50,247 nt of DNA, from contig JACPDY010000126.1 in NCBI GenBank assembly GCA_016183775.1, positions 1-50,247 of the forward strand. Reading direction: 5' to 3'. The stretch is from Bacteroidota bacterium. GTDB lineage: Bacteria; Bacteroidota; Bacteroidia; JABDFU01. The position numbers and the translations under genes are program-made. Position 1 is the stretch's first letter. The number at the start of each line of letters is the position of its first letter. Positions 27,673 through 36,280 of this stretch are shown piece by piece. The notes below the pieces were generated by a model that was given only the letters and a program-made list of their open reading frames with translations, did not search any database and had not been told where the DNA came from.

Positions 27673-27711
27673 GGTTACAGGTTCAGGTTAAATTAACCTG
27701 AACCTGTAACC
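27673..27711. repeat. 39-base perfect palindrome between TolC-like and adaptor genes
   Basis: Two perfectly complementary 19-base arms, GGTTACAGGTTCAGGTTAA and its complement, separated by a single A. It lies in the 74-base gap inside the efflux operon, 5 bases from the TolC-like gene stop. The arms are made of the words CAGGTT and GGTTACAGG, also seen in direct repeat just beyond the arm. Confidence 0.8.
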
Positions 27712-29905: not shown

Positions 29906-31324
29906 ATGGAAAAATATAAAGTAGCTGATCTGCTCAGATCGACTGAATACGGGAAAGAAGTATCTATTAAAGGCTGGGTGCGTACCAAGCGCGGGAATAA
30001 GAATGTTGCTTTTATTGCGCTGAACGATGGTTCTGTTATTCACAATATACAGGCTGTTGTTGACCTTGCAAAAATTTCCGAAGAGGAGTTGAAACATGTC
30101 ACTACAGGCGCATGCATAGCTGTAACAGGAACGCTGACAAAATCGCAGGGACAGGGACAAAGTGTGGAGATTCAGACAACGAAATTAGACGTACTGGGAA
30201 TTGCAGATGAAACATTTCCATTGCAAAAAAAGGCTCATACGCTTGAGTTTTTGCGGGAGATAGCCCATCTACGGCCTCGTACAAATACATTCGGCGCTAT
30301 TTTGCGCATCCGCCACCACATGTCATTCGCCATTCATAAGTTTTTTAACGATCAAGGATTCTATTATCTCCACGCGCCTATCGTTACAGGTACTGATGCA
30401 GAAGGCGCAGGCGAAATGTTCAGGGTAACCACACTCGACATAGACAAACCTCCACGCAACCCCGATGGCACAATTGATTATAAGCAGGATTTTTTTGGCC
30501 GTCAAACCAACCTGACTGTTTCCGGGCAGTTGGAATCCGAATTAGCAGCAACCGCTTTAGGTTTGGTATACACTTTTGGCCCTACATTTCGCGCTGAGAA
30601 TTCGAACACTCCACGTCATTTGGCAGAATTCTGGATGATAGAGCCCGAGATGGCGTTTTACGAGATAAAAGATAATATGGACCTTGCTGAAAGCATGTTG
30701 AAATATCTTGTTCAATATGCCCTTGACAATTGCGGTGATGACATCGCGTTTTTAAACAATCGTGCAATTGAAGAAGATAAAACAAAAAAAGAGCACGAAC
30801 GAAGCAAAACTACATTATTGGAACGCCTGAATAATGTAAAAAATGAGCCGTTCAAACGTATTACATATACAGAAGCAATAGAAGTTCTTAAGCTGGGTAA
30901 AAAATTTGAATTCCGTCCCGAGTGGGGAAAAGACCTGCAAAAGGAGCACGAAAACTTTTTAGTAGATCATTTTAAAGTACCCGTTATTGTTACCGATTAC
31001 CCAAAAGGCATAAAAGCTTTTTATATGAAACAAAATGAGGATGGCAAAACAGTGCGCGCCATGGATGTTTTGTTCCCTTATGTGGGCGAAATGATCGGCG
31101 GTTCACAGCGTGAAGAAAATTACGATAAGCTACAGGCAAGGATAAAGGAAATGGGCATTCATGAGCAAAGCCTTTGGTGGTACATGGAAACACGCAAATA
31201 TGGCACATGCCCTCATAGTGGGTTTGGGCTTGGCTTTGAGCGATTGATATTATTTATTACCGGCATGACCAATGTACGGGATATCATTCCGTTTCCAAGG
31301 ACGCCGAAGAATGCGGAGTTTTAG
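29906..31324 (+). CDS. asnS: Asparaginyl-tRNA synthetase
   Basis: A class IIb aminoacyl-tRNA synthetase of 472 residues. The N-terminal OB-fold anticodon-binding domain ([20 protein letters not shown]) is followed by the catalytic core with motif 2 ([21 protein letters not shown]) and motif 3 ([15 protein letters not shown]). [11 protein letters not shown] separates it from AspRS-type sequences. The ATG at 29906 is used; earlier in-frame ATGs would add a hydrophobic extension absent from the family. The last 39 bases, including the stop codon, recur exactly at 32455-32493, so the present 3' end may be an element-supplied copy. Confidence 0.96.
31286..31324 (+). repeat. Left copy of the 39-base direct repeat (end of asnS with stop codon)
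   Basis: Begins ATTCCGTTTCC and ends GCGGAGTTTTAG; identical at all 39 positions to 32455-32493. Flanks differ: GATATC before and TTGAAG after. Confidence 0.95.
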
Positions 31325-31342
31325 TTGAAGCAGAAATGCTTA

Positions 31343-32425
31343 ATGGCATACATGGGAAAAGCAAAAAAGAAAATAACACCTGGTAGAATTAAGAAAACAG
31401 ACGTGCTGTTTAGCGAAATAAAATCGCGGATAGAACAAGCGCGGAAGGAAGTAGCTGTCCAAGTGAATCAATCATTGACACTGCTTTATTGGAACATTGG
31501 TAACATTATTCATCATCATATTCTGGACAGCAGCCGTGCAGGATACAGCAAAGAAATTGTCGTGACACTGTCGCGACAATTGACGGCAGAATATGGGAAT
31601 GGCTATAGCATTTCTGGATTATGGCGCATGGTTCAATTCAGACAATCATTTGCCAATTCTCAAATTCTCGCGACACTGTCGCAAGAATTGAGTTGGAGCC
31701 ATTTCACGGAACTGGTTACCATTGAAACAGAGGCTCAACGAATGTTTTACGCCCAAATGGCAATTATTGAACGATGGAGCGTGCGTCAGCTTCGGGAACG
31801 TATAGATAGCATGTTGTTTGAGCGGACCGCCCTTTCAAAAAAGCCTGAAAAACTTATTAAGCAAGAGTTGAGAAAACTTCCATCCGGCAGTATTGCCAAT
31901 CCTGATCTGGTTTTCCGCGATCCATACCTTTTAGATTTTCTTGGCCTTAAAGAAACTTATTCCGAAAAAGACCTAGAGGACGCAATACTGGCACAAGTAC
32001 AACAATTTATCATTGAGCTTGGCAGCGATTTTGCATTTCTGGCAAGGCAAAAACGAATCGTTATAGACGGTACAGATTATAAAATTGATCTGTTGTTTTA
32101 TCACCGTGGCTTAAAATGCCTCGTGGCGATTGATTTGAAACTGGGAAAATTCCGTGCCGCCGATAAAGGGCAAATGGAATTGTACTTACGCTGGCTCGAA
32201 AAACATGAGCAACGTGAAGGTGAAAATGCCCCAGTTGGCCTGATACTTTGTTCCGATAAATCGGATGAGCATGTTGAGCTTTTATTACTGAAAGAAAACC
32301 GGATAAAAGTGGCGCAATATTACACTCAATTGCCTTCCATGAAAATACTGAAAGATAAATTACATAAAGCAATACTCATAGCCCGGCAAAAAGAAGAAAT
32401 AAAACAACAGAAAAAGGGTAAGTGA
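31343..32425 (+). CDS. DUF1016 (YhcG-type) PDDEXK nuclease-domain protein
   Basis: About 360 residues. The N-terminal DUF1016_N domain (LLYWNIGNIIHHHIL, TLSQELSWSHFTELV) is followed by the C-terminal nuclease-like domain with SMLFERTALSKKPE, NPDLVFRDPYLLDFLGL, KIDLLFYHRGLKCLVAIDLK and GQMELYLRWLEKHE. The D...DxK spacing fits a PDDEXK active site (Asp in KIDLLFY, then IDLK, with Asp in place of the usual Glu). Family members are scattered and linked to mobile DNA and restriction loci; their biochemical role is poorly settled. The ATG at 31343 is used; a TTG directly after the asnS stop would add six residues. It is the sole gene between the repeats. Confidence 0.9.
   Translation: MAYMGKAKKKITPGRIKKTDVLFSEIKSRIEQARKEVAVQVNQSLTLLYWNIGNIIHHHILDSSRAGYSKEIVVTLSRQLTAEYGNGYSISGLWRMVQFRQSFANSQILATLSQELSWSHFTELVTIETEAQRMFYAQMAIIERWSVRQLRERIDSMLFERTALSKKPEKLIKQELRKLPSGSIANPDLVFRDPYLLDFLGLKETYSEKDLEDAILAQVQQFIIELGSDFAFLARQKRIVIDGTDYKIDLLFYHRGLKCLVAIDLKLGKFRAADKGQMELYLRWLEKHEQREGENAPVGLILCSDKSDEHVELLLLKENRIKVAQYYTQLPSMKILKDKLHKAILIARQKEEIKQQKKGK
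31555..31581. repeat. 27-base near-perfect palindrome, copy 1, inside the DUF1016 gene
   Basis: Arms AATTGTCGTGACA and TGTCGCGACAATT around a central C; 12 of 13 pairs match and the odd one is a T/G wobble. In frame it encodes part of IVVTLSRQLT. Confidence 0.8.
31663..31689. repeat. 27-base near-perfect palindrome, copy 2, inside the DUF1016 gene
   Basis: Arms AATTCTCGCGACA and TGTCGCAAGAATT around the same central C; 12 of 13 pairs match. Its centre is exactly 108 bases (36 codons) from copy 1, in the same phase, encoding part of ILATLSQELS. With one bulged A the stem can extend outward to CTCAA/TTGAG. Confidence 0.8.
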
Positions 32426-36247: not shown

Positions 36248-36280
36248 AACTCTGTCAGGGTTTAGAACCCTGACAGAGTT
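36248..36280 (+). terminator. Strong hairpin after the crotonase gene
   Basis: Perfect 15-base arms AACTCTGTCAGGGTT and AACCCTGACAGAGTT with a TAG loop. It ends 8 bases before the TTG start of the flippase gene, so it separates the two transcripts or controls the second. The right arm shares CAGAGTT with the hairpin at 47168-47205. Confidence 0.7.

Follow-up and report, generated by a model that had tools for sequence, protein, structure and literature searches.

Why does the reading frame of a predicted nuclease gene contain two 27-base palindromes set in the same codon phase? The gene lies in the window (the whole stretch analysed here, 50,247 nucleotides of a Bacteroidota contig), in which the first-pass annotation, made from the letters alone, had picked out both dyads and a compensatory difference between them, and had ventured that the nuclease might recognize its own gene. 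The features at issue are:

31325..32425, plus strand: DUF1016/YhcG gene, encoding a predicted ParB/Noc-like DNA-binding domain and a predicted PD-(D/E)XK nuclease
31415..31825, plus strand: DUF1016_N, predicted ParB/Noc-type DNA-binding domain (Pfam, HTH_ParB, AF2, Foldseek)
31555..31581, no strand: palindrome copy 1 (site A), centre 31568, AATTGTCGTGACA-C-TGTCGCGACAATT
31663..31689, no strand: palindrome copy 2 (site B), centre 31676, AATTCTCGCGACA-C-TGTCGCAAGAATT, directly 5' of the LSWSH codons
32087..32140, plus strand: predicted nuclease active-site motif D246...D261-x-K263, nearly unchanged across 180 homologues

What kind of protein is this? Its likely start is the ATG at 31343 or 31352. 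The product matches PF17761 with 148.7 bits (cut-off 32.8) and PF06250 with 170.3 bits (cut-off 32.5), both above the gathering score, and PADLOC assigns the gene to PDC-S02, a candidate defence model; by Pfam and PADLOC, the protein is a full member of the YhcG/DUF1016 family (COG4804). The predicted PD-(D/E)XK active site is near-invariant and appears intact in nearly all DUF1016/YhcG genes: among 180 homologues, D246 is kept in 178/180, D/E261 in 179/180, K263 in 178/180, and E222 in 173/180. A whole-protein fold search matched the nuclease domain alone (EndoMS/NucS, XisH), and no PDB relative was found by sequence. Among the neighbors at 58 DUF1016 loci no gene recurs; the search for a cognate methyltransferase turned up only a few hsdM-like neighbors.

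The two palindromes exist as claimed: each is 12/13 paired, they are spaced 108 nt apart in identical codon phase, and at offset 9 copy 1 has G/C where copy 2 has C/G. Their mismatches lie at offset 5 (T.G) in copy 1 and offset 7 (C.A) in copy 2. The window holds other palindromes as well: two related ones at 36264 and 47184 (TCTGTCAGGGTTTAGAACCCTGACAGA and TCTGACAGAGTTTAAACCCCTGTCAGA), unrelated to DUF1016, are probably terminator-like repeats, and a perfect palindrome with 13-bp arms at 27692 (AGGTTCAGGTTAAATTAACCTGAACCT) lies between two efflux-operon genes.

Are in-frame dyads peculiar to this gene? Odd-centered, in-frame palindromes of about 27 bp are present in nearly all DUF1016/YhcG genes examined, in Bacteroidota, Gammaproteobacteria, viral contigs, and E. 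coli K-12, with the family consensus AATT-N7-CA-N-TG-N7'-AATT. The AATT ends and the CA-N-TG center are conserved; offsets 3-9 use several pair types, reversals included, and the stems differ completely between genes, as do the peptides they encode, which are unrelated (IRQSLTAEL, IGDAVRHQL, IVQQAVGQL, IANALRSQL). The main palindrome usually stands directly 5' of codons for [LP]W[ST]H and is colinear with homologs that have no palindrome; some genes have a further site 36 codons upstream, and arrays repeating every 39 nt also occur. The three DUF1016 paralogs in the window's genome carry different palindromes near the same position, and paralogs within one genome are usually of different palindrome type. 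A strict exclusion of same-type paralogs was considered and rejected: two genomes (G259 and G195) hold same-core pairs.

To what extent do the codons themselves account for the pairing? The counts come from DUF1016 genes chosen without regard to palindromes, and the null was obtained by shuffling synonymous codons within those genes. An in-phase 27-nt palindrome with at least 11/13 pairs occurs in 106/156 Bacteroidota, 34/50 gammaproteobacterial, and 50/61 viral-contig genes, and the shuffles yield 2-5, 0-2, and 0-3, respectively. At a threshold of at least 10/13, the in-phase counts are 144/156, 42/50, and 54/61 (shuffles, about 19, 4, and 7); at 12/13 or better, they are 69, 22, and 36 genes (shuffles, 0-2). 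Codon phases in the Bacteroidota set, at 11/13 or better, are distributed 124 : 5 : 0. One further shuffle enrichment took in palindrome-selected loci and is left out of these unbiased figures; a single-sequence viral scan gave no match. The first-pass proposal that pairing is conserved beyond what the codons demand is borne out by counts far above the shuffle nulls, and relatives that keep the peptide while synonymous codons break the palindrome are not what is seen: there, the peptide changes and the palindrome persists. A palindrome imposed by the protein sequence is rejected by the same shuffles.

Does anything in the protein change with the bases of the palindrome? Protein residues were compared with the base pairs of the gene's own palindrome in 180 genes, with positions numbered from the first base of the ORF (31325). 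The five top couples exceed all 322 non-palindrome columns, and their residues all lie outside the palindrome codons:

31613..31615, plus strand: Ser88 codon counted from ATG 31352 (ORF position 97), covaries with offset 7
31625..31627, plus strand: Arg92 codon counted from ATG 31352 (ORF position 101), covaries with offset 5
31697..31699, plus strand: Ser116 codon counted from ATG 31352 (ORF position 125), covaries with offset 3; aligned to the G of the ParB motif GHAR
31706..31708, plus strand: Thr119 codon counted from ATG 31352 (ORF position 128), covaries with offset 4; aligned to the R of the ParB motif GHAR
31781..31783, plus strand: Val144 codon counted from ATG 31352 (ORF position 153), covaries with offset 3

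At offset 7, G accompanies Arg97 in 58/60 genes, and C accompanies Lys97 in 38/40 and Gln97 in 15/16; at offset 5, A goes with Tyr101 (44/46) and Asn101 (22/24); at offset 4, C goes with Arg128 (34/38); and at offset 3, C is paired with Gly125 (20/20) and Lys153 (21/21), and G with Tyr125 (8/8). The mismatched pairs of the window gene fall exactly where this code allows either of two bases, C or T at offset 5 for Arg101 and T or C at offset 7 for Ser97. At offsets 8-9 pairing is good and no residue stands out as a strong reader, so that part of the dyad is unexplained.

Could shared ancestry produce these couples? The same five head the ranking in 150 genes chosen irrespective of palindromes, with z of 23, 22, 14, 12, and 12 under a clade-preserving null in which permutation is allowed only within 50%-identity clusters. 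Among gene pairs at 55-95% protein identity, base 7 is shared in 92% if residue 97 is the same and in 40% if it is different. Base and residue also switch jointly between genes that are 85-90% identical: in L050/L036, offset 7 goes from C to G with Q to R; in L149/L024, offset 3 goes from A to C with S to T and F to K; and L322/L252 is a third near-identical pair showing a switch. A phylogenetic artifact is rejected by the clade-preserving permutations, the identity-binned pairs, and the dropping of palindrome-selected genes. Ordinary coevolution within the protein is disfavored because the code also holds for palindromes elsewhere and because matching sites occur outside the gene as well; for 95 held-out genes with palindromes in another part of the protein, the base was predicted in 68-87% of cases, compared with 29-58% when the residue was taken from a random gene.

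What would do the reading? A 2005 analysis described YhcG as a predicted nuclease whose helical N-terminal domain was unassigned, and had no match for that domain (PMC1189080). AF2 gives a confident all-helical model of it (pLDDT 95, pTM 0.84); in a Foldseek search of the PDB the top 12 matches are all Noc/ParB, with probabilities of up to 0.99 and every E-value above 0.1, and the matches include 7ol9, a Noc-NBS DNA complex. HTH_ParB is matched by 22/59 DUF1016 members (best E 6e-6). Judged by Foldseek and HTH_ParB, DUF1016_N is a predicted ParB/Noc-like DNA-binding domain; ParBc, the ParB CTPase, is absent from the Pfam matches listed for the window protein and the 59 members. In ParB/Noc, contacts with the palindromic site come from helices 4, 6, and 8, specificity is switched through residues 173 and 201, and the G and R of GHAR contact parS/NBS (PMC7383237). 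Profile alignment places positions 125 and 128 on these G and R residues (ParB G201, R204), and the 97-to-125 spacing equals that from 173 to 201 in ParB/Noc. From this spacing we infer that the recognition helix corresponds to that of ParB/Noc, its alignment having been left ambiguous by profile comparison.

Taken at the level of sequence, both palindromes are very probably binding sites for the encoded protein. A handful of residues on three helices would read each half-site, with 97 reading offset 7, 101 offset 5, 128 offset 4, and 125 and 153 offset 3; specificity and site would change together, generating many distinct protein-site pairs. That the DUF1016/YhcG protein recognizes the palindrome in its own gene can be put forward with high confidence, whatever the role of binding, and the early guess to this effect now draws strong support from the shuffles, the covariation, the switches, and the held-out predictions.

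Does E. coli follow suit? Its gene is the following:

L129:4828-5996: E. coli K-12 yhcG, with three in-frame palindromes 39 nt apart

A fourth K-12 palindrome lies 28 nt 3' of the stop codon, and strain 21F61 has a paired change in this post-stop copy. A divergent yhcG allele has a different, perfect first stem, and two E. coli types exist, with K or R at position 97 matched by C or G, respectively, at offset 7 of the first copy. In K-12, the base predicted from Lys97 is found at offset 7 in one of the three internal copies and is absent from the downstream copy. Unit number varies: an O157-type allele (L134) has lost two 39-nt units in frame, and two others (L133 and L136) have lost 80 nt and are frameshifted. 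A BLAST search with a 34-nt query of the downstream site found a median of 3 and a maximum of 6 places per genome (4 in the MG1655 record). In E. coli FDAARGOS_401 (L138:1500-2302), yhcG is broken near the end of the third palindrome, adjoining an annotated transposase gene, which suggests an insertion sequence that targets the palindrome. The yhcG gene is reported to be synthetic lethal with dnaB, dnaN, and parE alleles (PMC2672614), which is compatible with a role in DNA replication.

Where else do such sites occur? In the window's 4.5-Mb genome, the palindrome type (at most three mismatches of the specified bases) is found only at the two in-gene sites. With the window type confined to its own gene there and the E. 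coli downstream site found at so few places per genome, the natural chromosomal target appears to be the gene itself. Across 84,980 species genomes, an exact 23-mer of the window type turned up 60 times, in taxa ranging from Bacteroidota to Actinobacteria and Planctomycetes and including one archaeal bin; 54 of these are in DUF1016 genes, 53 of them within ORFs and in one phase and one in a frameshifted gene. A few solo sites adjoin genes unrelated to DUF1016: two genomes that are not related each have a solo GTCGCGACA palindrome next to an AAA_16 ATPase gene (L085:1663-1685 and L095:4217-4239), the latter genome with no DUF1016 match, and no clear link between these sites and the ATPase was found; another (L116:5426-5448) is just 3' of an hsdM-like gene. 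In a termite-gut Bacteroidetes bin with 13 DUF1016 matches, the interval from ftsW to murG contains three palindromes whose cores differ (L074:3532-4065), and a fourth, similar one lies nearby. DUF1016 genes are also found on plasmids and viral contigs.

How did the gene come to lie where it does? It is bracketed by a repeat:

31286..31324, no strand: direct repeat copy 1, the last 39 nt of asnS including the stop codon
32455..32493, no strand: direct repeat copy 2, 39/39 identical, 29 nt 3' of the DUF1016 stop codon

The gene and the asnS-end repeat are arranged in the same way in G002, of the same genus; in two other congeners (G003 and G004) and in two genomes from other families of the class, asnS is followed directly by rpoN, and no such palindrome is present at these asnS-rpoN junctions. 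The window gene has the appearance of an insertion of one gene, with duplicated host sequence on either side. Direct repeats of 22-284 bp closely bracket 34/255 DUF1016 genes (13%) versus 5/229 control blocks (2%; P=3e-6); a flanking repeat is absent from 87% of DUF1016 genes. Mobility like that of the Rickettsia elements, which the first-pass annotation had considered for the palindromes, is not upheld; the mobile unit may be the whole gene.

If the protein binds its own gene, what is the binding for? It would bind as a dimer and could restrain its own synthesis, as at an intragenic operator, and/or steer the nuclease to its own DNA for mobilization; at its own sites, the nuclease would be inhibited, conditional, or protected. 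Every carrier keeps its sites, which excludes constitutive cutting unless the sites are protected. The leading roles are intragenic autoregulation and self-directed mobilization, which possibly coexist; type-specific defence is less likely.

Autoregulation alone, with operators inside the ORF at which the protein acts as a roadblock to its own transcription while the nuclease has other targets, is a plausible reading that falls somewhat short of probable. It fits sites placed a few hundred nucleotides into the gene and the extra matching sites just upstream of some genes (L188, L289, and L106) or between tandem genes (L102), and autorepression would explain why there are several copies with one core and why specificity has to coevolve with the site. 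But promoter-proximal sites are rare, so classical operator control is not general, and a near-invariant nuclease, the absence of other genomic targets, and the fast diversification of specificity would go unexplained.

Self-mobilization is a possible but rather doubtful alternative. The nuclease would act on its own palindromes, starting excision, copying, or transfer of a single-gene element, whose subsequent integration at short homologies would leave behind long direct repeats of host sequence. The excess of bracketing repeats over control blocks, the empty asnS-rpoN site, the conserved active site, the occurrence on plasmids and viral contigs, the same 23-mer across phyla, and the E. coli alleles missing two 39-nt units all speak for it. 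Yet a passenger gene that recombined illegitimately or homologously could account for the repeats, an empty site without the palindrome means that this is not ordinary homing, and cells tolerate several intact sites.

Defence or conflict between elements, in which incoming DNA with the same palindrome type is attacked and types are driven to diversify, is unlikely. The PADLOC candidate model, the hypervariable types (the two of E. coli included), and paralogs that usually differ in type would suit it, but same-core paralogs in two genomes and intact sites beside the gene in every carrier would not, and a specific site of about 14 bp is too rare for restricting general phage DNA.

The first-pass annotation had left open whether selection acts on the dyad as DNA or as RNA. 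Its DNA half stands, upheld by the shuffles and the covariation; an mRNA hairpin with structure-dependent regulation is very improbable, near-perfect sense-strand stems of 12-13 bp notwithstanding. Sense-strand mismatches of the G.U and A.C types are equally frequent (35:35, and 74:70 at a looser cut-off), showing no tolerance of wobble and, hence, a dyad conserved as DNA rather than as an RNA hairpin; matching sites also lie outside the ORF, as 3' of E. coli yhcG, and the covariation with DNA-binding residues is base-specific. Least credible of all is an in-frame palindromic mobile element of the Rickettsia type, or a chance or protein-driven palindrome: coding palindromes in frame and E. coli arrays of varying unit number recall the former, but the sites are almost confined to DUF1016 rather than spread over unrelated genes (54/60), keep one phase and a fixed position, are colinear at the main site with palindrome-free homologs, and defy the shuffle null.

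In the boldest reading, slightly less likely than not, DUF1016/YhcG would be a selfish element of a new kind, a single mobile gene which uses its own hypervariable in-frame address to mobilize, police, or limit itself, reader and address coevolving so that bacteria, archaea, plasmids, and viruses carry many orthogonal types. The YhcG/DUF1016 papers found in open-licence PMC do not describe the palindromes or a self-site. For a very widespread, uncharacterized nuclease family that E. coli K-12 also carries, this names a specific target that can be tested, the gene itself. Its protein-site pairs, numerous and mutually distinct, would also lend themselves to orthogonal labeling of DNA. Should mobility or conflict be driven by self-recognition, this would be a class of self-addressed mobile genes that is absent from those papers.

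How does this arrangement compare with known systems? Like freestanding homing endonucleases, DUF1016 is a single nuclease gene, seemingly self-moving and found in phages and plasmids; unlike them, it does not have its site in the empty allele, which homing endonucleases recognize: the site is in the gene, and the empty asnS-rpoN junction lacks it. Autoregulators of the lac O2 type and the C proteins of restriction-modification systems share a palindrome in or by the gene, an HTH reader, and possible autorepression, but in DUF1016 the site is hypervariable and coevolves across phyla, the regulator is itself a predicted nuclease, and promoter-proximal sites are rare. Rickettsia palindromic elements and REP-RAYT also combine palindromic repeats, some of them coding, with, in RAYT, a nuclease-type protein tied to palindromes; DUF1016 palindromes, by contrast, are not dispersed and hold a fixed position and phase in one gene family. 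The newness would lie in the combination of nuclease, hypervariable in-frame self-site, and single-gene insertion, and would be smaller if the role is simple autorepression. ParB-parS and Noc-NBS share with DUF1016 the same predicted DNA-binding fold (Foldseek, HTH_ParB), a palindromic multi-copy site, and specificity set by a few residues at helix starts, here as judged by covariation. One B. subtilis parS even lies inside spo0J itself. DUF1016 differs from ParB-parS in having no reported ParBc match, a fusion to a PD-(D/E)XK nuclease, and no known partition role, and its sites differ from parS and NBS in being odd-centered, about 27 bp long, hypervariable, and almost always within their own reading frame. 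Each gene would hold both the DNA reader and the DNA that is read, so that genomes alone can yield a recognition code of the ParB/Noc type.
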